From: Nitrospirota bacterium
GTDB taxonomy: Bacteria > Nitrospirota > Nitrospiria > JACQBW01
NCBI GenBank assembly: GCA_016178585.1
Contig: JACOTA010000045.1
Location: 1 to 45,367, forward strand
DNA: 45,367 nt
Direction: 5' to 3'
Position numbers and translations under genes: made by a program. A model generated the notes under the pieces. The model was not told the origin of the DNA, did no database searches, and was given only the letters and a program-made list of their open reading frames with translations. Shown here piece after piece: positions 1,266-14,817 of this stretch (its first letter is position 1; each line of letters opens with the position of its first letter).

Positions 1266-1934
1266 ATGACAAAAAAATATGAAATCCAACTTGAAATTTC
1301 AGGTCCTACTGCTATTTGGACAAGACCGGACTCTGGGGATTGCCCCGTGAGTTATCCGGCTCCTACGTACTCTGCGGTCAAAGGAATTTTCGAGGCAATT
1401 CTATTCATCCAAGCCGTGGAGATAGTGCCGTGCAAAGTCGAAATATGTGCGCCCATCGTATATCACACTTACAACACCAACTACGGTGGTCCACTCCGTA
1501 AGTCCGATCAGATCAACAAGGGCGCAAGCTACCAGCTATTATCCTCAGTGCTTGTCAACCCCTGTTATCGATTGTACGCAGTTGCTCAATCCAATGTGAA
1601 GACGAATGGCAGAGTTTCAGAAAAAACTTTGGCTTGGCTGAGTCGTACCACTTCTGCCCCTCACGCATATCAAGAAATGTTCAACAGAAGGCTAAAACGA
1701 GGGCAGAACCATTATATCCCCTGCTTGGGCTGGAAGGAATTTACGCCTGATTACGTCGGCGCATTCCGGCCCGAAACGCGGGTATACACGGATTTCAACA
1801 TGACCTTGTCGAGCATGTTGCGGCAGGTGTTTCCGGATGGTTTGAGGTCCGAGGCGCGCTATGTCTTCGATCAAGACGTTGATATTCGAGGCGGTGAGTT
1901 GAAATATCATCCGGAGGTGGATCATGCTCAATGA
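1266..1934 (+). CDS. cas5c: Cas5c (Cas5d), type I-C pre-crRNA endoribonuclease
   Basis: 222 residues. In type I-C systems, which lack Cas6, Cas5c cuts pre-crRNA at the base of the repeat hairpin and stays bound as a Cascade subunit. The conserved segment with an arginine pair, KRGQ and a following aromatic/LG/EF pattern is at about residues 139-159 (MFNRRLKRGQ…CLGWKEF). The N-terminal RAMP strand is clear, with a proline-rich loop at 26-35. The start ATG has GGAGAG 6 bases upstream. The gene overlaps cas8c by 11 bp. It is the first gene of the operon, with cas3 displaced downstream. I could not assign catalytic Tyr/Lys/His by position. Confidence 0.93.
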   Translation: MTKKYEIQLEISGPTAIWTRPDSGDCPVSYPAPTYSAVKGIFEAILFIQAVEIVPCKVEICAPIVYHTYNTNYGGPLRKSDQINKGASYQLLSSVLVNPCYRLYAVAQSNVKTNGRVSEKTLAWLSRTTSAPHAYQEMFNRRLKRGQNHYIPCLGWKEFTPDYVGAFRPETRVYTDFNMTLSSMLRQVFPDGLRSEARYVFDQDVDIRGGELKYHPEVDHAQ

Positions 1935-4050
1935 ACTTTATGATGCAGCTCGCAGTCTTGAAGCCGCCGGGATAAGCCCTCCGGACTGGCATAAGGAATA
2001 TGTGCCAGTTCGTGCTCCTAAACTGGCATTCTTCGTCTATATTGACCAGCAGGGTGAAATCACGGCTATCGAGCGCGTCGGCGACAAAGCGGACGTTGCT
2101 GATCTCCGGACTTGGGAATCGAAAGGCGACTTAAGGCAGTCTTTCCCCTATTTCAACATCCCTCCCCTGCTATGGATTGAATTCGATCCAGAACAGAATG
2201 AGGACGATAAATCTATAAAGAAGGCACTGAAAGCGAACAAGCTGACTAGAGAACAACTTGTTCAACTCTTAGAGAAAACTAGAAACGACGAGCCGACAAA
2301 AAAATGGCAAGAGAATTTCCGCAATAAAATAGGGAAATGTTTAGACAAGGGCAGGGTCTTGAAGAGTGTGCTTGGGGAAGCGCCCCAAATGTATCAATCT
2401 ATCATCGAGTTGATTGATCGTTTGGAAAACACATCGGCAGAAGATCTCTACAATAAACTTTTCAAAACCTTGAAGGACAAGATGTTGACCCAGCCGAAAG
2501 CGGCAGGGAAATATTTTGATGGTTTATTTTCTTGGAGTGAAGAAGGTCCCGGCAACGACGTTACGCTCTTTCTTGAATTAGTTGATGGTGCATCTCGTTT
2601 CGAATACCCGGTAAAAAATAAAAGCGTCAGAGACTGGATCAACGATAGACTCCTTTCCCAAGTTGAAAACAGGGGTGCCTCGTCTCCGACACTCGATATT
2701 TTCGGAAACCACAGCGTAGGATGGGAATTAACCTTCGATGATGTCCGCATGAAGAATACGCTGGGAATTGTAAAGCTGCGAGCAATGGCATCTGCGGCTG
2801 TGTGCCAGTATCGCTACGGCAAGGCTGATGCAGAATCCTGCCGGGTAGGCCAAGAGAGCCGCAGAAAGATGAAAGGGGCCCTTGAATGGCTAACCGACCC
2901 ATCCCATAAAGGCAAGACGTGGGATACTGTGGCGCGTGCAGCGGACAACAAAGAAATCCTCCTATCGTACCCATCAATGTTACCGCCAGAACCGCCAGAC
3001 ATAGCCATCATGTTCGGCGGCGCGTTGGAAAGTGATACTGACAATACAGGACGATTTGAGAATTGCGCTCAAAATGTTACAGGCTCCCTGCGTGGACTCA
3101 TGGCAAAGAACCCGAATTTGGATATTCGGGTGTTTGTCCTGCGAAAGATGGACACTGCCCGCACGCGAGTGTCCAACCACCGCCGCTATAGCGCGCAACA
3201 CCTGATCGACTCCGCAAAGAATTGGCAGATGGGCTGTCGCAATCTCCCCCGTATCTTGATCAAACAGTTCGTCCATGGGGGGGGGCGACCAGAGTGGCGG
3301 GAAGCTCAAACACCCTTTCCCATGGAGGTGGTCTGGATGCTCAATACCTTTTGGTCGCGTGGCATGAAGGGAACAACAAAGGGAAAAGGCCAGCCGCAAT
3401 GGTCACCCATAGCAGTTAAAGATATTGCCGCTGAGGATGGCATTAGCCTGCTCCTGGAAGAAGGAGTTTTTCTCCAGCCGATCCTTCACCACGCTTTATA
3501 TGGTGCTACTCGTAATGGCGTTGGCTTGGTGTTGGCGCTTGGGCAGGCGCACGCACAAGACCAAGTCTTTACTACTGATAAGAACTACGCGCGGCAGGCA
3601 GTGATTCTGCCAAGCCTTCTTGGAATTTTACTCTTCAAGATAAATATCACAAAGGAGGATTATATGAAGTCTCCACCCTATTTGATTGGCAGGTTACTGA
3701 GCCTCGCCGACCAGTTGCATTACCACTATTGTCAGCATGTGCGGAAGAATAGTATACCCCCTCAACTGATGGGCAATGCGCTGATGCCGACCGCTTTGGA
3801 AGAGCCGGTCAAGGCGCTCGCCCTCTATTCGAACAGGATATTGCCGTATCAGGCGTGGGCCAAGACAGTTTCCGGAGATCCGGTAGGGTTGGCTCGTTAC
3901 TTCCTTTCAGAGTTAGGAAAAACCTGTTCCGAGGTATCGCTGAGTAAAATTTCGGAACGCTGCACTGACGCGGACAAGGCGCAGATGCTGATTGGTTATC
4001 TGGCACGCACCGAAAAAACTGACTCTGAAACTAAACAAAAAGGAGAGTGA
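1924..4050 (+). CDS. cas8c: Cas8c (Csd1), type I-C Cascade large subunit
   Basis: 708 residues, slightly longer than a typical Csd1. Cas8c recognises the PAM and positions the DNA for Cas3. The N-terminus (MLNELYDAARSLEAAG…) and the mid-protein block 'YRYGKADAESCRVGQESRRK' fit Csd1. The ATG follows GGAGG and overlaps cas5c by 11 bp, suggesting translational coupling. The C-terminal 128 residues are also predicted to be made separately as Cas11c from an internal ribosome binding site (see 3664). The gene ends overlapping or just before cas7c. Confidence 0.93.
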   Translation: MLNELYDAARSLEAAGISPPDWHKEYVPVRAPKLAFFVYIDQQGEITAIERVGDKADVADLRTWESKGDLRQSFPYFNIPPLLWIEFDPEQNEDDKSIKKALKANKLTREQLVQLLEKTRNDEPTKKWQENFRNKIGKCLDKGRVLKSVLGEAPQMYQSIIELIDRLENTSAEDLYNKLFKTLKDKMLTQPKAAGKYFDGLFSWSEEGPGNDVTLFLELVDGASRFEYPVKNKSVRDWINDRLLSQVENRGASSPTLDIFGNHSVGWELTFDDVRMKNTLGIVKLRAMASAAVCQYRYGKADAESCRVGQESRRKMKGALEWLTDPSHKGKTWDTVARAADNKEILLSYPSMLPPEPPDIAIMFGGALESDTDNTGRFENCAQNVTGSLRGLMAKNPNLDIRVFVLRKMDTARTRVSNHRRYSAQHLIDSAKNWQMGCRNLPRILIKQFVHGGGRPEWREAQTPFPMEVVWMLNTFWSRGMKGTTKGKGQPQWSPIAVKDIAAEDGISLLLEEGVFLQPILHHALYGATRNGVGLVLALGQAHAQDQVFTTDKNYARQAVILPSLLGILLFKINITKEDYMKSPPYLIGRLLSLADQLHYHYCQHVRKNSIPPQLMGNALMPTALEEPVKALALYSNRILPYQAWAKTVSGDPVGLARYFLSELGKTCSEVSLSKISERCTDADKAQMLIGYLARTEKTDSETKQKGE
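3651..3658 (+). promoter_or_regulatory. internal Shine-Dalgarno for cas11c inside cas8c
   Basis: AAAGGAGG lies inside the cas8c coding sequence, 5 bases before an in-frame ATG at 3664. It is one of the best ribosome binding sites in the window, and better than expected for a random internal methionine. Confidence 0.7.
3664..4050 (+). CDS. cas11c: Cas11c small subunit from internal start within cas8c
   Basis: The ATG at 3664 is in frame with cas8c (codon 581) and preceded by AAAGGAGG with a 5-base spacer. The product would be 128 residues (MKSPPYLIGRLLSLADQLHY…), matching the C-terminal helical domain of Cas8c. Type I-C loci are known to encode the small subunit Cas11c this way, and it lines the Cascade belly and stabilises the R-loop. 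The length is close to what is described for Cas11c. The site, frame and position are seen directly; expression is inferred from the known I-C mechanism. Confidence 0.75.
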   Translation: MKSPPYLIGRLLSLADQLHYHYCQHVRKNSIPPQLMGNALMPTALEEPVKALALYSNRILPYQAWAKTVSGDPVGLARYFLSELGKTCSEVSLSKISERCTDADKAQMLIGYLARTEKTDSETKQKGE

Positions 4051-4052
4051 AC

Positions 4053-4916
4053 ATGAACACTGAGATCAAGCGCGCCACCGGTCTGTTGATTATCGAGGTT
4101 ATCAATTCCAACCCAAACGGAGATCCTGACCGTGAGAGCGATCCGCGTCAGCGGCCCGATGGCAGAGGCGAAATTTCACCGGTTTCCTTCAAACGTAAGT
4201 TGCGCGACCTTGCTGAGGACAAGGAAGGCCCAGTCTGGCAGCAACTCAGCCAACAAATGAAACTGGACCAAAAGGAATTTGTCATCCTGGAGTCCCGCGA
4301 TACAAAAAAAGGGGATTACAAGGGGGCAATAAAAAAAGAACTTGAAGATGGGGCTTCAGCATTCAAACAAAAATATTGGGATGGCCGCATCTTTGGAAAT
4401 ACCTTTCTCGAAGAAGCGATGGACAAAGGGACGATCAAGACCGGCGTTGTTCAATTCGGTCTCGGTCTGTCGATTTCCCCTATCGAGATTGAGCGCCACA
4501 CCAACACAAATAAAGCAGGTGTTGAGGAGGGGAAAACCGCCGGTATGGCCCCTATGGGGTATCGCTTTGTCCAGCACGGCATTTATTGCATGCCCTTCTT
4601 TGTTAATCCCAGCATGGCACACAAGTCTGGTTGCACGGCGGTTGATATCGATCTCCTCAAGAAGCTAATTCCTCATGCTTATGCCCATACCCGCTCGCAT
4701 GCCCGCCCCTTCGTCGATCTCCGTCACGCTTGGTATTGCGAACACAACAATCCGCTCGGGTCATGCTCCGACTTTGCGCTCATTGATGCTCTCAGACCGA
4801 AAAAGAAGGATGATCCCAGCACATCGTCGAAGTCTTGGGATGACTACGATGCTCCTGCTGAACTACCAGCGGACCTTGCGTCAAAAGTGGTCTGTATTGA
4901 TCTTGTCGGGAGGTAA
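4053..4916 (+). CDS. cas7: Cas7c (Csd2), type I-C Cascade backbone subunit
   Basis: 287 residues. Cas7 polymerises along the crRNA spacer to form the Cascade filament. The N-terminus MNTEIKRATGLLIIEVINSN followed by PNGDPD is the hallmark of Csd2. Two starts are possible: GTG at 4047 (overlapping the cas8c stop) and ATG at 4053. I prefer ATG 4053 because the AAAGGAG sequence lies 7 bases upstream of it and much too close to the GTG. The stop is directly adjacent to the cas3 ATG at 4917. Confidence 0.93.
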   Translation: MNTEIKRATGLLIIEVINSNPNGDPDRESDPRQRPDGRGEISPVSFKRKLRDLAEDKEGPVWQQLSQQMKLDQKEFVILESRDTKKGDYKGAIKKELEDGASAFKQKYWDGRIFGNTFLEEAMDKGTIKTGVVQFGLGLSISPIEIERHTNTNKAGVEEGKTAGMAPMGYRFVQHGIYCMPFFVNPSMAHKSGCTAVDIDLLKKLIPHAYAHTRSHARPFVDLRHAWYCEHNNPLGSCSDFALIDALRPKKKDDPSTSSKSWDDYDAPAELPADLASKVVCIDLVGR

Positions 4917-7151
4917 ATGAGCTATCTTGCCCACAGCGCCAGACCGGATCAAAGTATTCCGGCGCAGGGGTACGGCGAGCACATCCGCGCCAGCCGTGAC
5001 AGCGCACTCCTACATGCCGAAAAATGCGGGCGTTATTCAAAGCGCTTCGGTGAGATGCTGGTTGCAACGGCAACGCTTGCGGGGGAGTTCCATGACTTCG
5101 GAAAACTGGACGATGCCAACCAAAAGGTGCTTGCTGGAACCGGCGGCGGTAAGTTGCCGGTTCCTCATGTGGACGCTGGTGCGGCGCATCTGTTAAATAA
5201 AGGCGATCAGGCAAGTAAGTACGCGGCTCTTATTTGTTACGCTCACCACCGTGGTCTCCCATCTCTTCCCGAAGAAATCAATAGGTCACAACATTGGATG
5301 CGAGATGGCTCGCCGGAGTGGCGGGCATACGCCAACGCCCATCTCGCCGAATATCTACGGAGACATCGTGATTGTGTTGAGGAGGCTAATTCACTATTGC
5401 CACCTTCTCTCGAAACCAATCAACTTCAAGTCCTCTGGCGGCTTGCTCTTTCCTGCCAAGCCGACGCAGACCATGGTGATACCGCGCGCCATTACGGAAA
5501 GGCCCCCTTAAATACCCCGCCACTACTCAGAGCAAAAGAACGGCTTGCGGTGCTTGATTCCTATGTTGCGGAATTGCGTAATCGGGGTCGTGACGCTCCC
5601 CGCACGGAGTTGCGCCAGGCAATTTACCAAGCATGTAAAAGTGCGAGCACGCAGCCTCATCTTTACGCATGTGATGCGCCGGTAGGTTCCGGCAAGACCA
5701 CGGCGGTGATGGCGCATCTGCTCAAGGCCGCCTCCGATAAAAATTTGCGCCGGATATTCGTCGTATTACCGTATACCAATATTATTACCCAGGCTGTTGA
5801 AGTTTACCGTGAGGCGTTGGCGCTGAAGGGTGAAAACCCGGAAGAAGTTGTTGCTGAGCACCATCACAAGGCTGATTATGCCACACCCGAAAGTCGTCGA
5901 TTCACAATGTTGTGGCATGCGCCCATTGTCGTAACTACTGCTGTCCAGTTCTTCGAAACCCTTGCCTCGAACATGCCGGCCGATCTTCGTAAGCTACATC
6001 GATTACCCGGATCGGCAGTCTTTCTCGACGAAGCTCACGCGGCATTACCCGCATATTTGTGGCCACAGGCATGGTTATGGCTAAACGAACTGTCTGAGCA
6101 TTGGGGATGCCACTTTGTTTTTGCCTCCGGGTCGCTTACTCGATTCTGGGAATTGCCTGATTTTCACCCACAGACGAATTCGCAGCAATCCAGTTTACAC
6201 GTGCTACCGGAACTGGTTACCCAAGCCCCACGGACACAGGCGTTTGACCGGGAACAAAAGCGTGTAATTTACAGGCCAAAGCCCAAGCCTTTCGATTTAG
6301 ACGGTTTGGTGAAATGGGTTGGCCAACATCCAGGGCCAAGGTTACTTATAATGAACACGGTCCAATCAACTGCTGTGGTCGCTAGGGAAATGGCGAAGCG
6401 CTACGGCTGCGGGAAGGTCGAGCACCTATCCACGGCTTTGACGCCTGCAGACCGCGAAATTACTCTGAACCACGTCAAACAACGCCTTATCAGCAGTTCC
6501 GACCCTGACTGGACATTAGTCGCGACTTCATGCGTGGAAGCTGGAGTGGATTTCTCGTTTCGCGTAGGCTTTCGTGAGCGGGCAAGTTTGATGAGTCTCA
6601 TACAGCTTGGAGGGCGAGTCAATCGAGGCCATGAAGAGGATCGAGCAACGGTTTGGGATTTTCAGATCATCCCCGATGCCTTGCTTCGTCTTCATCCAAA
6701 GTTCAGAACGGCGGCTCGCGTGTTAGGGGAACTCTTCGAAGAGGGCAAAGTCGCGCCGGAGTTCTGTATGGAAGCCCTGAAGCGGGAGATTCGCTGGGAC
6801 AATACGATAAGTGATGAGCTCTTACGAGCCGAAAGTGCCGGCGATGCTAGGAATGCCGACTTTCCGAAGGTAGCAGAACTATTCAAGGTGATAGATAGCA
6901 ATACCGTAACTGTCGTCGTCGCTAGCAAACTGCAAGAACAGTTGCGGCAGGGAAAATGGTGCGGGAAGGATGAACTACAAAAACATAGTGTTCAGATCTG
7001 GGGTTGGCGGGTGGAAGATCTCCGCCTGGAGGAATTCATGAGATCCCCTCGCGTTTACGGATGGCAGTTACCGTACGACAGCTTTCTCGGCTACATGGCG
7101 GGGCTGCTCCCCGATATAGAGTTTGTGAGTGGCAAGCCAACGGTGATTTAG
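4917..7151 (+). CDS. cas3: Cas3 HD-nuclease/helicase
   Basis: 744 residues. Recruited by Cascade, it nicks and degrades target DNA while translocating. The N-terminal HD domain shows H22, the HD dyad at 59-60 (FHDFGKLDDAN), H84 and HH at 110-111. The SF2 helicase has Walker A PVGSGKTT at about 255-262 and a DEAH box at about 371-374 (FLDEAHAALP). A motif VI-like 'LGGRVNRGHEED' segment follows. All key residues appear present, so it looks active. It begins on the base after the cas7 stop. Its position between cas7 and cas4 differs from the usual I-C order, where cas3 leads the operon. Confidence 0.95.
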   Translation: MSYLAHSARPDQSIPAQGYGEHIRASRDSALLHAEKCGRYSKRFGEMLVATATLAGEFHDFGKLDDANQKVLAGTGGGKLPVPHVDAGAAHLLNKGDQASKYAALICYAHHRGLPSLPEEINRSQHWMRDGSPEWRAYANAHLAEYLRRHRDCVEEANSLLPPSLETNQLQVLWRLALSCQADADHGDTARHYGKAPLNTPPLLRAKERLAVLDSYVAELRNRGRDAPRTELRQAIYQACKSASTQPHLYACDAPVGSGKTTAVMAHLLKAASDKNLRRIFVVLPYTNIITQAVEVYREALALKGENPEEVVAEHHHKADYATPESRRFTMLWHAPIVVTTAVQFFETLASNMPADLRKLHRLPGSAVFLDEAHAALPAYLWPQAWLWLNELSEHWGCHFVFASGSLTRFWELPDFHPQTNSQQSSLHVLPELVTQAPRTQAFDREQKRVIYRPKPKPFDLDGLVKWVGQHPGPRLLIMNTVQSTAVVAREMAKRYGCGKVEHLSTALTPADREITLNHVKQRLISSSDPDWTLVATSCVEAGVDFSFRVGFRERASLMSLIQLGGRVNRGHEEDRATVWDFQIIPDALLRLHPKFRTAARVLGELFEEGKVAPEFCMEALKREIRWDNTISDELLRAESAGDARNADFPKVAELFKVIDSNTVTVVVASKLQEQLRQGKWCGKDELQKHSVQIWGWRVEDLRLEEFMRSPRVYGWQLPYDSFLGYMAGLLPDIEFVSGKPTVI

Positions 7152-7152
7152 C

Positions 7153-7773
7153 ATGGATGAGGCAACTATCCCCATTTCCGCCCTGAATCAATACACATAC
7201 TGCTCTCGCCGTTGTGCGCTTATTCATGTAGAGCAGACGTTTGAGGAGAATATTTATACCATGCGGGGTCGTGACTTGCATGAGCGGACGGACACCCCGG
7301 AAGAAAGTGGATGGGAAGATGGAATCCGGATTGAGCGGGCACTTCCTCTCTGGAATAATCGTTTGGGTTTGATTGGCAAAGCAGATGTGGTTGAATTCCA
7401 CGGTGAAACTCCCTATCCGGTGGAATATAAACACGGGCGTTTACACAAGTATGAAAATGATGATCTCCAACTCTGTGCCCAGGCATTATGTCTGGAGGAA
7501 ATGACCGGTCAGCCTGTTCCCCGTGGAGCTATCTTTCACCATAGTTCCCGCAGTCGGCGTGAAGTGGCATTTGACCATGAGCTTCATAATCTCGTTGAAA
7601 TTACAATTAAAGCAATCAGGGGAATGTTTTCATCAAAAACAATCCCTCCGCCAGTAAATGATGCTCGTTGCCGGAATTGCTCTCTCCAAGAGGCCTGTAT
7701 GCCTTCCGCGATTGCAGAACAAAAGCGAACCCGTTTACTACATGAAAACTTATTCCGGGTGATAGACCCATAA
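7153..7773 (+). CDS. cas4: Cas4 exonuclease (spacer adaptation)
   Basis: 206 residues, RecB-like nuclease with an iron-sulfur cluster. Cas4 trims prespacers and selects PAM-bearing ends together with Cas1-Cas2. Cys17 or Cys21 and the C-terminal Cys172, Cys175 and Cys181 are the expected cluster ligands. The nuclease residues are Asp77 (GKADVV) and the Glu90-x-Lys92 pair (VEYKHG). The start is one base after the cas3 stop with no clear ribosome binding site, so translation is probably coupled. Complete. Confidence 0.93.
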   Translation: MDEATIPISALNQYTYCSRRCALIHVEQTFEENIYTMRGRDLHERTDTPEESGWEDGIRIERALPLWNNRLGLIGKADVVEFHGETPYPVEYKHGRLHKYENDDLQLCAQALCLEEMTGQPVPRGAIFHHSSRSRREVAFDHELHNLVEITIKAIRGMFSSKTIPPPVNDARCRNCSLQEACMPSAIAEQKRTRLLHENLFRVIDP

Positions 7774-7805
7774 AGCCAGGTTTAATTTATGGTAATGGAA
7801 CAAAA

Positions 7806-8837
7806 ATGCATCAACTGTTGAACACTTTATATATTACCACTGAAGGGGCGTATCTCCATTTAGATCATGATACCCTTAAGGTGGAGGTCGAAAAAGAAAC
7901 AAAACTCCAGGTGCCGATTCATCATTTGGGAGGCGTTGTCTGTTTTGGAAATGTGATGGTGAGCCCATTTGCGATGCACCGATGTGCTGAAGACGGCCGC
8001 TTTATGGTGTTACTTGATCGCAATGGCCGGTTTAAAGCTCGTGTTGAAGGTCCTGTTTCGGGGAATGTCCTTTTAAGGAAGGCTCAACATGAAGCCATGA
8101 CCAATAATCAAATAACAATTTCCATTGCTAAAAATATTGTGGCTGGCAAGATTCAAAATACCCGGCAGGTTATTCTTCGAGGTGCCCGGGACACCGATGA
8201 TCAGCAAGATGTTTTGACATTAAAAGCCACAGCCGAGTCTCTTGGAGGCGCTTTGTCAAGACTTTCAAATTGCGAGGACCTTGATCAAATTCGGGGTGTT
8301 GAGGGGGAATCAGCCCGAACTTATTTTGGATCATTTGACAAGCTGGTTCGAGAAGACCGTGAATCATTTAAGCTGAACGGGCGAACCCGTCGTCCTCCAT
8401 TGGACAGGATGAACGCCCTTATTTCATTTATATACGCATTGTTAATGAACGATTGCGTGGCGGCGGCGGAGGGAGTTGGATTAGACCCGCAGATGGGATT
8501 TTTGCATGCCCTCCGGCCAGGCCGTGCGGCATTGGCGCTCGATTTAATGGAAGAGTTTCGCTCTATCCTGGCAGATCGTTTGGCATTAACTCTCGTAAAC
8601 CGCAGGCAGATCAATAAAAATTGTTTTATTGAAAGACCTGGCGGAGCGATTCATTTAAATGACGAAGGGAGAAAAGAGGTGGTCATTGCTTATCAAAAAC
8701 GGAAACAGGAAGAAATTCTCCATCCTTTCCTGGAACAAAAAATGCCGATTGGTTTGATTCCACATGTTCAAGCGCGCTTGCTTGCCCGAACATTGCGTGG
8801 GGATATGGAAGAATATATTCCTTTTTTGTACCGGTGA
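7806..8837 (+). CDS. cas1: Cas1 integrase, type I-C
   Basis: 343 residues. Metal-dependent integrase that, with Cas2, inserts new spacers at the leader end. The acidic/His active site is visible: Glu166 in GVEGESA, His234 in GFLHALRPGR and the acidic pair Asp246/Glu249 in LDLMEEFR. The typical length and an N-terminal beta-sheet beginning MHQLLNTLYITTEGAYL support a complete protein. It follows cas4 by 32 bp and precedes cas2 by 6 bp. Confidence 0.96.
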   Translation: MHQLLNTLYITTEGAYLHLDHDTLKVEVEKETKLQVPIHHLGGVVCFGNVMVSPFAMHRCAEDGRFMVLLDRNGRFKARVEGPVSGNVLLRKAQHEAMTNNQITISIAKNIVAGKIQNTRQVILRGARDTDDQQDVLTLKATAESLGGALSRLSNCEDLDQIRGVEGESARTYFGSFDKLVREDRESFKLNGRTRRPPLDRMNALISFIYALLMNDCVAAAEGVGLDPQMGFLHALRPGRAALALDLMEEFRSILADRLALTLVNRRQINKNCFIERPGGAIHLNDEGRKEVVIAYQKRKQEEILHPFLEQKMPIGLIPHVQARLLARTLRGDMEEYIPFLYR

Positions 8838-8843
8838 GATCAG

Positions 8844-9134
8844 ATGCATATTTTAATTACGTATGATGTTTCTACAGAGACCTCCTTTGGAGGCAGGCGC
8901 TTACGGATGGTTGCTCAGACTTGTAAAAACTTTGGTCAGCGGGTACAGAAATCTGTTTTTGAGTGCACAGTAAACCCCATGCAATATGAAGAATTGGTTC
9001 GAAAGTTATCGGACATTATTGAAGCAAAAGAAGATAGTCTTAGAATTTACCGGCTACCGGAACCAAAAGACAAATACATTAAATCCTTTGGGATTAATAA
9101 AACAATAGATTTCGATGGGCCTTTATTGGCATAA
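8844..9134 (+). CDS. cas2: Cas2
   Basis: 96 residues, ferredoxin-like fold starting MHILITYDVST, with the conserved Asp8 after the first strand. It bridges two Cas1 dimers in the adaptation complex. The segment QRVQKSVFECTV is the family's second conserved strand. Last gene of the cas operon; the leader starts directly after its stop. Confidence 0.95.
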   Translation: MHILITYDVSTETSFGGRRLRMVAQTCKNFGQRVQKSVFECTVNPMQYEELVRKLSDIIEAKEDSLRIYRLPEPKDKYIKSFGINKTIDFDGPLLA

Positions 9135-9312: not shown

Positions 9313-10712
9313 GTAGCACCCGTCCTTCGGGGCGGGTGAGGATTGAAACAAGTTCTTCCTGAGATTCAATTAGCAGCGCCAGCGTAGCACCCGTCCTTCG
9401 GGGCGGGTGAGGATTGAAACGAATGATAAGCGAACTCGGCGGAAGAATAGGCGGCGTAGCACCCGTCCTTCGGGGCGGGTGAGGATTGAAACTATTGGCT
9501 AATTTGGCTGAAATCTATTATAATCTCGTAGCACCCGTCCTTCGGGGCGGGTGAGGATTGAAACTGATTAACTGTTTAAGATCTTGTTTAAACCGTTTGT
9601 AGCACCCGTCCTTCGGGGCGGGTGAGGATTGAAACAATTTAGACATGAATTTTATCTATCCATTGCCCTGGTAGCACCCGTCCTTCGGGGCGGGTGAGGA
9701 TTGAAACTAGATTTGGCATTTGTATTTAAATCTAATTCAGAGGTAGCACCCGTCCTTCGGGGCGGGTGAGGATTGAAACACCAAATACCAGGAGATTCTA
9801 AGGTCACTTTTTTGTAGCACCCGTCCTTCGGGGCGGGTGAGGATTGAAACCTATTTCTAACCCTGGTTTGTAAGTTGAATACATGGTAGCACCCGTCCTT
9901 CGGGGCGGGTGAGGATTGAAACAAGTGAAAGAACAGGAATAAAGGATTCTACTTTAGTAGCACCCGTCCTTCGGGGCGGGTGAGGATTGAAACTTTCAAA
10001 CCGCGTGATCTATTGCTCTCTGTGCGTGTAGCACCCGTCCTTCGGGGCGGGTGAGGATTGAAACTTAATTTCCCTTCCTTTTTTGATTTCTTATTCTGGA
10101 GTAGCACCCGTCCTTCGGGGCGGGTGAGGATTGAAACCAGGCGGATTTATCCCTATCGGAGATAGACTTTCCGTAGCACCCGTCCTTCGGGGCGGGTGAG
10201 GATTGAAACGTCCAGCGCTGAGCTTGGTCACTGCTTTTGCGTCTGGTAGCACCCGTCCTTCGGGGCGGGTGAGGATTGAAACCACGTAATGGAGCTTTTG
10301 AATTCATCCCCGCAAAAAGTAGCACCCGTCCTTCGGGGCGGGTGAGGATTGAAACAAAAATATTGGAGTATATCCAGCGGTGGGACTTTTGTAGCACCCG
10401 TCCTTCGGGGCGGGTGAGGATTGAAACCGTCTGCTGATATAGCCAGGCAGTCGAAGGTCGGGTAGCACCCGTCCTTCGGGGCGGGTGAGGATTGAAACAT
10501 TTCGCCCGCATCTACCTGGGCGCGCAGGGCTCGGTAGCACCCGTCCTTCGGGGCGGGTGAGGATTGAAACGATTGCAAAGCACCGGTTTGAGTTTGATAA
10601 TGATGTAGCACCCGTCCTTCGGGGCGGGTGAGGATTGAAACGTGGTCGATGTCGTTGTCGATGTCGAGATCGTTGGTAGCACCCGTCCTTCGGGGCGGGT
10701 GAGGATTGAAAC
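9313..10712 (+). CRISPR. type I-C CRISPR array, 20 repeats and 19 spacers
   Basis: Twenty copies of a 37-bp repeat, all identical by eye, start at 9313, 9384, 9456, 9528, 9599, 9671, 9743, 9814, 9886, 9957, 10028, 10101, 10173, 10246, 10319, 10391, 10462, 10534, 10605 and 10676. Spacers are 34-36 bp and all differ. Each repeat is GTAG, a 9-bp stem CACCCGTCC / GGGCGGGTG (one G·U pair) closed by a TTCG tetraloop, and an 11-base tail AGGATTGAAAC. Cas5c cleavage at the stem base would leave that 11-base tail as the crRNA 5' handle, as known for I-C. Transcription should run on the plus strand from the leader. Long minus-strand reading frames across the array are artefacts of the repeat. Confidence 0.98.
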
Positions 10713-11222: not shown

Positions 11223-13982
11223 TTAGGTGGTGAGCTTTTTATAGATTTGGGGGAGTTTTTGGGGAAGGGTTTGAATGTCGGAGATGAACGTATAGTTGAC
11301 GTCCTGATACATTTTCTGGATATAATTGCCGGCCTGTTTGTCCACAGTAATGCAGAAAGGGTGAATTCCTCTGTTTTTGGCCTCCCTTAGCGCCATTTTG
11401 GTATCTTCCAGGGCGTAAAGCTCCAGGTAATCGTCATCCAGAGGTTTTCCGTCGCTGAGGATGATCATCAGTTTGATTTTGGCTTCCCGTTGGACGAATT
11501 TGTGGGTGAGGTGGCGGATGGCGGTGCCATCCCGGTTTTGCTTTAAAGGTTCCAGGGCCCCTAATTTCTGGTTGAATAAGAGGGCATTCTTGTCGTCAAA
11601 ACCTTTAATCGTATAAAAATCGATCTGCTCCCGCGACTGCCCTGAAAACCCGAAAATTCCATATTCATCACCGATTGAATTTAAGGCTTCGGCCATTAAT
11701 TTTAAGCTTTCTTTTTCAATATCGATAATTCTTTTTTCGGCGCCGGGAATAACCTGCCGGGTCGATCCGCTTAAATCGATTAAAAAGGCGACTGAAATTT
11801 TCCTTTCCTTTTTTTCTCTTCGGATGTAAAAATTTTCAGATGGGGTAAAACCTGATTGGATGTCTACAACAGCCTCGATTAAACGGTCGAAATCAAATTC
11901 TTCACCGTCTTTCTGTTTTTTTGCGTTTCTGTAATTTTCAGGCCGGAGTTTTTCAAAATATCTCCGAAGGGAAAGGAGCGATCCGTAAGGGAGGTCCGGT
12001 CCCGTTGGATGAATCGACGGCGGTTCGAAACCTTTTTCAACGAGTTTGCACCAGTCCGGTTTATAGTCCTGGTTCATCCAGTCCCATTCAGGGTATGAGA
12101 AAGAGTCCTTTGCCCCCGGTTTAACGGACGTTTTATTTGAAGCCGGCTCTCCGGTTGACTGAGGGGAGAGGGTGATGGTTTCGGATTGGACCTGTTGCGG
12201 CAGTGGGTTCTCGGTCATATTTAAATTAAACGAGGAATCAACGGGCGCCGATTCCGTTTGAAACGCCAGGTCAGGAGTGATCAGGCCGTGATTGGAAAAG
12301 GCGCTTTCGGGGAGGGTCCCGTAGTTGGGAATATTTTCTGCGGGGGGGATGACATCCGGTTTTTTATCTTCCGGCGCGTTTTGTTTGATCTCTTTACGGA
12401 GCTGGCCATAGATCAGGCAGACGGTATGGAGGGTGTCTTCCACGGCGGTCTCCGGATGCCAGAGTGTTTTTAAAATGGAAAATGCCCGGGAGACGGTATT
12501 GGCGATGGGAAGGGGAACGACGATATCCTCATTGACCGATAACTGGAATAAGGCCTCCAGAACCCCTTTTTCTTCCGGGAGTTGAAATAAATCAGGCCGT
12601 TTTTCTTTTTGGCTCGCCAGGATCGGTTTCAACTCCCGCATCGCCCCCGAATATTTCAGCCGGAGGAGATAGTCGATTCTCGACTCTTCGGCGATCATCC
12701 AGAGATTCTGGGCCAGAACCGGGTCAGGAAAATAGCGCCAAACCGGTTGCCGGGGGGAAAAAGTCAGCCCTTCTTTTTCTGACAGGGCCATGAGCTCCCG
12801 GATGGAGGCCGGTCCAAGAGGGGTATAGCTTCCAAATTCAATATGGGCGGATTCATGAAGGGTCATTAATTTATAGAGTTTGAGATTATCGTCACGATCC
12901 ATGTAAACATTGATTTTTTCGGGGAGGGTAATGGTTCCGGTACGATCTTTAAGCCGGCTTGAGGGGATCAAACCCGGCGTGATTTCAACCGTCCGTCCGG
13001 TGATCATTTCGGCAAAATATTTTAAACGTTTATGGACATCCGATAAAAAGACGTTATGGGATAAGCTCCGGATGGTGTCGATTGATTTTTGAGATTTAAG
13101 AGCAAAGAAGGCCCTGACCAGCTCAGGGTTCTCTTTAATTTTGATTTTGAGGCCGGCTTCGACAAAAACCTTTAGGGAAGTTAAATTCCCGTTCATCATT
13201 TTTAAAAGGTCGGTGGCATGGGTTAAAAAGCCGGTCACGGCCGAGGGCGCCTGAAAGCCGATCTCGCCGGCAAGAGAAAAAATAAGATGAATTTCCTCTT
13301 TCTGATGGAGGTTTTGAAAAATTTCCGGAACAGCCTTGAAATACCCCAACGTTTCTTTCGGGGCCTGGAGCGCCAGGGCGTGACCAATTTTAAGGATTTG
13401 AGGATGAAGCGAAGAGTCCTTTACCCGGGCGAAGATTTCGGGAGAGGTTCTGAAATATTCCAGGGTCAGGAAACTTTTGGCCTGGAGATCTTCTCTGGAC
13501 AGCAAAAGGCCGATTTTACCCCAGGGTTCCAGCAACCCCGCATCCAGGACGGGGAGAATAGAGGGGCCTGATTTAAAATATTCTGTGCCGGTGAGATAAT
13601 CTTCTTTGGCCAGAAGGTTCCCTTTACGCGCCCATTCGTCGAGGGTTTCAGGTGGAAAATGGTGGATCAGCTCGGGTAAACGCCGAAAATAGTCCAGAGC
13701 CATGCTGTTTTGCTCAAGCCCAAGATGCAGACCGGTTTGAAGAAAAGCCGTCAGGGCCGGGTGGTTTTTGATTTGCTGAAGAATTTCAGGACTGTCATTA
13801 AAAAACTTGATGCCATTGGCAGAGGAAGCGTAGGAAATTAGAAAACCAAGATTAAACCAGGGTTGAAAGAGGTTGAACGGGAGTTTGTAAAACAGCTCTT
13901 CACTGACCCGGTCAAACGCCCGGGCGGCTTTCGGGGAAATCTGATTGATTTTCGCGGAGAAATCCTCCAGGCGGCTATCCAT
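11223..13982 (-). CDS. NorD/CbbO-like VWA-domain protein
   Basis: About 919 residues. The C-terminal VWA domain has an intact MIDAS motif DLSGST at about residue 736 plus the downstream DGT and SDG segments. NorD/CbbO proteins work with a MoxR-type ATPase to activate metalloenzymes or Rubisco. An HESAH (HExxH) motif is at about 377-381. The N-terminal 300 residues repeat a 'YFxxxPEI' unit about every 38 residues (near 61, 99, 136, 177, 215), suggesting a helical solenoid. The ATG at 13982 has AAAGG 6 bases upstream and is preferred over a TTG one codon earlier. It follows the ATPase gene by about 60 bp. No nitric oxide reductase or Rubisco gene is in view, so the client is unknown. Confidence 0.8.
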   Translation of the reverse strand: MDSRLEDFSAKINQISPKAARAFDRVSEELFYKLPFNLFQPWFNLGFLISYASSANGIKFFNDSPEILQQIKNHPALTAFLQTGLHLGLEQNSMALDYFRRLPELIHHFPPETLDEWARKGNLLAKEDYLTGTEYFKSGPSILPVLDAGLLEPWGKIGLLLSREDLQAKSFLTLEYFRTSPEIFARVKDSSLHPQILKIGHALALQAPKETLGYFKAVPEIFQNLHQKEEIHLIFSLAGEIGFQAPSAVTGFLTHATDLLKMMNGNLTSLKVFVEAGLKIKIKENPELVRAFFALKSQKSIDTIRSLSHNVFLSDVHKRLKYFAEMITGRTVEITPGLIPSSRLKDRTGTITLPEKINVYMDRDDNLKLYKLMTLHESAHIEFGSYTPLGPASIRELMALSEKEGLTFSPRQPVWRYFPDPVLAQNLWMIAEESRIDYLLRLKYSGAMRELKPILASQKEKRPDLFQLPEEKGVLEALFQLSVNEDIVVPLPIANTVSRAFSILKTLWHPETAVEDTLHTVCLIYGQLRKEIKQNAPEDKKPDVIPPAENIPNYGTLPESAFSNHGLITPDLAFQTESAPVDSSFNLNMTENPLPQQVQSETITLSPQSTGEPASNKTSVKPGAKDSFSYPEWDWMNQDYKPDWCKLVEKGFEPPSIHPTGPDLPYGSLLSLRRYFEKLRPENYRNAKKQKDGEEFDFDRLIEAVVDIQSGFTPSENFYIRREKKERKISVAFLIDLSGSTRQVIPGAEKRIIDIEKESLKLMAEALNSIGDEYGIFGFSGQSREQIDFYTIKGFDDKNALLFNQKLGALEPLKQNRDGTAIRHLTHKFVQREAKIKLMIILSDGKPLDDDYLELYALEDTKMALREAKNRGIHPFCITVDKQAGNYIQKMYQDVNYTFISDIQTLPQKLPQIYKKLTT

Positions 13983-14046
13983 CAAAGGCCTTTCTTCGTA
14001 AATAAAGAGTGACGGTCACGATGATCAGATCATAAGGTTTTTTCAT

Positions 14047-14817
14047 TTATAAGATGGAAGAGACAATTTCCTGGATACTTTTTTGCATTTCCGGATCGTC
14101 GGTAAGCGGTTGGGCAAGCGCTGTTTTGCAGGCAAGGTAAGGGTCAATTCCATTTTTGATTAGATGACCGGCATAAATCAGGAGTCGGGTGCTGACCCCT
14201 TCATCCAGGCCCTGATTTTTAAGATTTCTTATTTTCTGCCCTATTCTGACGAGACTTTTTGCCATTTCATCTTTGACTCCCGCTTCGTGGCGGACAATCT
14301 CGACCTCCTGTTCAAAGGGAGGATAATTAAATTCAAGGGCGATAAATCGTTGTTTCGTGCTCTGCTTCAGCTCTTTAAGAACACTTTGGTAACCTGGATT
14401 ATATGAAAGCACCAGCATGAAATTTTTATGAGCCTCGATGACCGTTCCTTTTTTTTCAATCGGAAGGATTCTACGGCTGTCCGACAGGGGATGTATAACG
14501 ACCGTTGTATCTTTCCGGGCTTCCACAATTTCGTCCAGATAACAGATGGCCCCTTCTTTAACCGCAGTGGTCAAGGGACCATCAGACCAAACCGTTTCAT
14601 TTCCCTTGAGGAGATAACGTCCGACGAGGTCGGAAGCGGTCAGGTCTTCGTGACAGGAGACGGTGGTTAAGGGCACCTTTAAACGATAAGCCATAGACTC
14701 TACGAAACGGGTTTTGCCGCATCCTGTCGGCCCTTTTAAGGCCACTGGAATTCGGGATTCAAAGGCGATTTGAAAGAGTTTAACTTCGTCGCCGGTGGGG
14801 ATATAGAAAGGTTCGAT
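14047..14817 (-). CDS. NorQ/CbbQ-type MoxR AAA+ ATPase (non-canonical start)
   Basis: 256 residues if started at 14817. Walker A GPTGCGKT, Walker B ICYLDEI, a sensor-1-like SYNPGYQ segment and the C-terminal lid of CbbQ/NirQ/NorQ are present. The protein is a hexameric ATPase that drives a VWA partner to remodel a metalloenzyme. The first ordinary start codon is GTG at 14745, only 4 residues before Walker A. The 24 codons upstream (…[20 protein letters not shown]) encode the conserved family N-terminus and remain open back to a TAA 21 bp before ATC 14817. Only ATC (14815-14817), with AAGGA 9 bases upstream, fits as a start. Either AUC initiation or a point mutation/sequence error is implied. 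Confidence 0.8.

Follow-up and report, generated by a model that had tools for sequence, protein, structure and literature searches.

Does the cas8c gene of a type I-C CRISPR–Cas operon in Nitrospirota bacterium DNA (contig JACOTA010000045.1, positions 1–45,367 of the forward strand; this stretch of 45,367 nucleotides (nt) is called the window below) encode a second protein, the small subunit Cas11c, from a start codon inside the gene? In the type I-C system of Desulfovibrio vulgaris an internally initiated Cas11c was found in Cascade in two copies per complex (PMC7684278), and an internal cas11 has been described in cas8c of Neisseria lactamica (PMC10865793). The window cas8c (1924–4050, + strand) encodes a large subunit of 708 residues and contains a Shine–Dalgarno sequence, AAAGGAGG, at 3651–3658 (+), followed by the 5-nt spacer ATTAT (3659–3663) and an ATG at 3664–3666, so that the sequence around the internal start reads ATCACAAAGGAGGATTATATGAAG. 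The ATG is in frame with cas8c, (3664 − 1924)/3 = 580, and is therefore codon 581 of 708; the predicted cas11c (3664–4050, +) ends at the TGA shared with cas8c (4048–4050) and gives a product of 128 residues, 14.29 kDa and isoelectric point 8.8. An initial annotation made from the sequence had placed a site 5 bases upstream of an in-frame ATG at this codon, with a C-terminal product of 128 residues and about 14 kDa, and both its coordinates and the size proved exact. Its statement that type I-C systems need Cas11c agrees with PMC7684278 and PMC11899642, and its proposal of a Cas11c hidden in cas8c is supported by conservation of the site, profile homology of the product and a control on ordinary type I-C genes. 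On these sequence comparisons, the window cas8c very probably encodes a genuine internal cas11c translated from its own start at 3664. A single strong site is insufficient by itself as proof of an internal start, and the evidence that carries this conclusion comes from relatives.

Relatives of the window Cas8c came from two related loci, from its class (4 of 269 genomes matched, its own included), from its phylum (20 of 395 genomes with a match to the PADLOC profile PDLC01562, again including its own), from another class (17 of 230 genomes, overlapping the phylum set) and from one record in a phage collection; searches of the viral_contigs and plasmids collections gave no relative. After removal of duplicates, fragments and rows without a returned protein, 22 Cas8c sequences including the window were aligned. 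The rows left out were L001 (the window itself), L015 (the same gene as L004), L031 (an N-terminal piece, the C-terminal piece L029 from the same genome being kept), and L019–L024 and L030, which yielded no protein from open frames of at least 300 residues at a phmmer expectation (E) value of 1e-3, L024 being given an open frame of 671 residues in the search listing. L029 is a partial gene and was excluded wherever 21 full-length sequences are counted. Sites were scored by the length of the longest stretch, no more than 16 nt upstream of the start, that is identical to part of an extended Shine–Dalgarno string. The codon at residue 581 is ATG in 22/22 sequences, and a match of at least 6 nt precedes it in 20 of them and of at least 5 nt in 21, with carriers of the site reaching down to 23% identity with the window protein. 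Of the internal Met residues of the window protein, Met581 alone is shared by all 21 full-length sequences, the window among them. When 689 alignment columns were scanned, the best column away from 581 combined a start with a site in 4/21 sequences, and in 21 of the 22 genes none of the in-frame ATGs tested paired with the 16S ribosomal RNA tail as well as the internal start, one tie occurring in L016. Mean column identity was 49% in the C-terminal family and 40% over the whole of Cas8c.

The sequences immediately upstream of the ATG indicate on what level the site is held. Its four preceding codons read AAG GAG xxx TAY (Lys-Glu-x-Tyr) in 14/22 sequences, AAA GGA GGA TTT (Lys-Gly-Gly-Phe) in L013 and L014, AAA GGA GAG ATT in L012 and, after a one-residue deletion, GAA GGA GGA CAT (Glu-Gly-Gly-His) in L029. 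Because both amino acids and codon register vary while the GGAG core stays in place to within one base (GGAGG lying 4–5 nt from the ATG in the first, second and last of these forms), the alignment indicates that the site is conserved as nucleotides and not merely through the amino acids. The invariance of Lys577 and Met581 in the 21-sequence full-length alignment would also be expected if the peptide Lys-Glu-Asp-Tyr-Met were conserved for the fold of Cas8c and the nucleotide match were a by-product. This is extremely improbable, since the peptide becomes KGGF, KGVF, KGEI or (in L029, outside that alignment) EGGH while the distance of GGAG(G) from the ATG changes by no more than one base, and since the observed matches exceed those expected from the same protein with other codons. 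In this codon null, in which codons for the same amino acids were drawn at random 5,000 times for 12 representatives below 60% identity, a site of at least 6 nt was expected in 2.6 representatives and observed in 10; 0/5000 draws reached 10, a figure that is not a strict probability, the representatives remaining mutually related. Across the relatives the internal start is thus far beyond chance. The idea that purine-rich Lys/Glu/Gly codons before a Met simply happen to spell an unused ribosome-binding site is very unlikely for the window gene, given the retention of the site in 20/22 sequences across such divergence, and with the codon null and the column scan it is not tenable for the family.

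Ordinary type I-C genes served as a positive control for the same scan. Ordinary Cas8c (TIGR01863) was matched in 33 of 266 genomes of the same class, 30 of them above the cut-off; of these 30 loci, 29 were used (L061 was left out) and 27 passed phmmer (L049 and L050 were dropped). L059, which is cut short at its C-terminus, was counted among the 27 genes and excluded from C-terminal alignments. Start and site together peaked just 5′ of the conserved Tyr-x-x-Gly-Arg motif, in 16/27 genes in the best single column, and when six neighbouring columns were allowed, a width chosen after the starts were seen to fall in neighbouring columns, a start with a match of at least 5 nt was present at the equivalent place in 25/27. 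Elsewhere in these genes their own start region scored 21/27 and the best remaining window 5/27. The scan therefore recovers the known type of internal start without being given its position.

Comparison of profiles links the predicted product to solved type I-C Cas11 in two steps. The family of 22 products aligned with the C-terminal domain of ordinary type I-C Cas8c over 101 columns beginning at residue 3 (E 8.1e-8, probability 94.5%), and with the full-length ordinary profile at its C-terminus (E 5.7e-7); a reversed profile and 20 column shuffles, used as controls, gave E 0.045 or worse. The ordinary C-terminal profile in turn matched two solved Cas11 chains, 7kha_K at E 2.4e-38, where residue 1 of the chain falls at profile position 4, and 8g9s_H at E 1.1e-40, where residue 2 falls at position 6. 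By this route the predicted product is a distant homologue of solved type I-C Cas11.

A number of results weigh against a genuine internal start. The likeness to Cas11c failed in direct searches of the PDB: neither the window Cas8c, nor the 128-residue product, nor their family profiles retrieved a Cas11. The profiles gave weak PDB matches to transcriptional regulators, to designed helical proteins and to an unrelated protein. AlphaFold models built from three-sequence alignments reached predicted local distance difference test (pLDDT) values of 49 and 36, too poor to use; the first was all-helical (mean pLDDT 48.7), and Foldseek with this low-scoring model returned 78 matches at an E cut-off of 10, none of which reached 0.001. 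The site is weak in two relatives, L003 (AAAGGGG, a 4-nt exact match) and L025 (AAGGA, a 5-nt match, −5.4 kcal/mol). The minimum-energy fold of the RNA around the internal start pairs the GGAG of the site with a downstream CUCC; the centroid fold leaves the site open, and folding around the start is no stronger than in shuffled sequences (z −0.72). The assembly, in which neither a 16S gene nor the pattern of its 3′ end was matched, gave no sequence for the host's own tail. Finally, permutation of synonymous codons within the window cas8c gave a match of at least 7 nt in 17% of 2,000 shuffles (P = 0.17, not significant), and a second in-frame ATG in the same gene, at 3337, is preceded by GGAGGTG at a spacer of 6 (region 3324–3339), a 7-nt match as long as that of the internal site. 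These last two points are what favours a chance origin. The 3337 site was used as an internal negative control: its Met472 is present in 1/21 sequences, and its ribosome-binding-like sequence is most likely due to chance. The same scan found a 6-nt match upstream of an in-frame GTG at 2002. For the window gene taken alone, the evidence beyond chance is thus only suggestive. Predicted pairing with the 16S tail, computed for the standard tail, which may differ from that of the host, is −11.6 kcal/mol for the internal site, the same for cas3, −10.8 for the cas8c start and −9.1 for the cas7 ATG; that the internal site pairs more strongly than the start of cas8c fits a subunit required in more copies than Cas8c.

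Beyond the observed site, its nucleotide conservation and the two-step homology, we infer how the predicted Cas11c would be produced, in what relative number, and with what place and role in Cascade. The cas8c messenger RNA would be translated twice: ribosomes starting at 1924 would make the 708-residue large subunit, and others, bound at the internal AAAGGAGG, would initiate at 3664 and release a free copy of the C-terminal domain of 128 residues, Cas11c. By analogy with the D. vulgaris complex, the extra copies may stack along the Cas7 filament, next to the corresponding domain of Cas8c, and hold the displaced (non-target) DNA strand during R-loop formation, a role taken from PMC7684278. The position of the site at the border of the C-terminal domain fits this double translation and equally well a pause of elongating ribosomes that would aid Cas8c folding at the domain boundary without any initiation. 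Pausing needs no start codon at a spacing of 4–5 nt, yet the ATG is present in 22/22 sequences, and the free product was found in the D. vulgaris Cascade (PMC7684278); we regard a mere pause as exceedingly improbable.

Compared with ordinary type I-C Cas11c, the product predicted by double translation is about 17% identical in the profile alignment, and 5 residues separate its start from the conserved Tyr of Tyr-x-x-Gly-Arg, where ordinary genes such as L032, L044 and L056 have 11 to 13. In the closest known system (PDB 7KHA) the parent Cas8c has 612 residues, against 708 here, where no NCBIfam model matches the window Cas8c. The type I-E small subunit, Cse2/Cas11e, is encoded by a gene of its own. 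It presumably fills the same role, that of the small subunit lying along the backbone of Cas7 (PMC7684278). Cas11d from type I-D cas10d and Cas11b from bacterial and archaeal type I-B cas8b likewise arise by internal in-frame initiation (PMC9123187, PMC11899642) and differ from the window cas11c in subtype and parent gene. An internal Cas11 is already established for related systems, and what is new here is an instance in a diverged type I-C lineage. Ordinary gene calling reports cas8c alone at such loci, and for that reason the small subunit would go missing unnoticed if cas8c were recoded when this diverged type I-C system is moved to another host; a site conserved over 22 diverged sequences offers a straightforward criterion by which cas11c can be annotated in this branch.

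That the system is a diverged lineage and not ordinary type I-C could not be seen in the initial annotation. The full type I-C gene set is present with an array, in an operon at 1266–9134 in the order cas5c, cas8c, cas7c, cas3, cas4, cas1c and cas2, and the locus is assigned to type I-C because Cas1c scores 524.7 bits against TIGR03640 (cut-off 385) and because the best PADLOC matches of Cas5, Cas8, Cas3, Cas4, Cas1 and Cas2 are type I-C; Cas7 is matched best in PADLOC by a profile that bears the name Cas7b and the labels I-B and I-C. The type I-C-specific NCBIfam models stay below their cut-offs for Cas5 (37.5 of 85 bits) and for Cas7 (123.7 of 182.25 bits against Csd2, its best NCBIfam match). 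Cas8c matches PDLC01562, a PADLOC profile that already exists for this family, at E 1.8e-144 and the PADLOC version of the ordinary Csd1 profile at no better than E 8e-4; identity between the diverged and ordinary Cas8c families is about 14% in a profile alignment. The usual order, cas3-cas5-cas8c-cas7-cas4-cas1-cas2 (table in PMC10333696), is not followed here: cas3 does not head the operon but stands between cas7 and cas4. It follows cas7 in all 15 related loci examined, and the whole order cas5-cas8-cas7-cas3-cas4-cas1-cas2 occurs in 12 of them. L064 ends with its contig inside cas3, cas3 is shortened in L067, and in L025 and L067 cas4, cas1 and cas2 were not found in the stretch covered beyond cas3. 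The displaced cas3 in the window and its relatives suggests a type I-C lineage of its own; gene order is typical and not strictly defining, and it marks a variant without excluding membership of type I-C. From these comparisons the locus probably represents a deep branch of its own within type I-C, with Cas8c of about 670–760 residues and cas3 behind cas7, in which an internal cas11c start already present in the ancestor shared with ordinary type I-C would have been kept as nucleotides since. The accessible part of the 2025 classification (PMC12669027) shows no type I-C sub-variant of this kind, and the literature searched on gene order, type I-C variants and classification gave no description of this branch, a weak negative since subscription papers were mostly outside the search. 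One relative, L062 (G258), carries two cas4-like genes between cas3 and cas1 (12267–14654). L025 (MT837094.1), a record of 9.8 kb entered as a faecal bacteriophage and marked unverified, contains cas5-cas8-cas7-cas3 of this lineage; the record may be bacterial DNA that was wrongly filed, or the system may be carried by a phage.

The remaining genes of the operon, all on the + strand, were assigned by profile matches: cas5c (1266–1934), cas7c (4053–4916), cas3, an HD nuclease-helicase (4917–7151), cas4 (7153–7773), cas1c (7806–8837) and cas2 (8844–9134). For cas7c the list of open reading frames gives a GTG at 4047; the ATG at 4053 is preceded by a better ribosome-binding site (AAGGAG, spacer 7). 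A repeat scan located the CRISPR array at 9313–10712 (+), with 20 identical 37-nt repeats, GTAGCACCCGTCCTTCGGGGCGGGTGAGGATTGAAAC, at a spacing of 71–73. A Doc-family toxin gene (265–651, −) adjoins the operon on the opposite strand, and upstream of it lies an antidote-like gene (655–921, −) that scores below the model's cut-off. Beyond the array, at 11223–14745 (−), a NorQ/CbbQ-type AAA ATPase (14047–14745) stands beside a von Willebrand-domain protein (11223–13985), a known type of activator pair.
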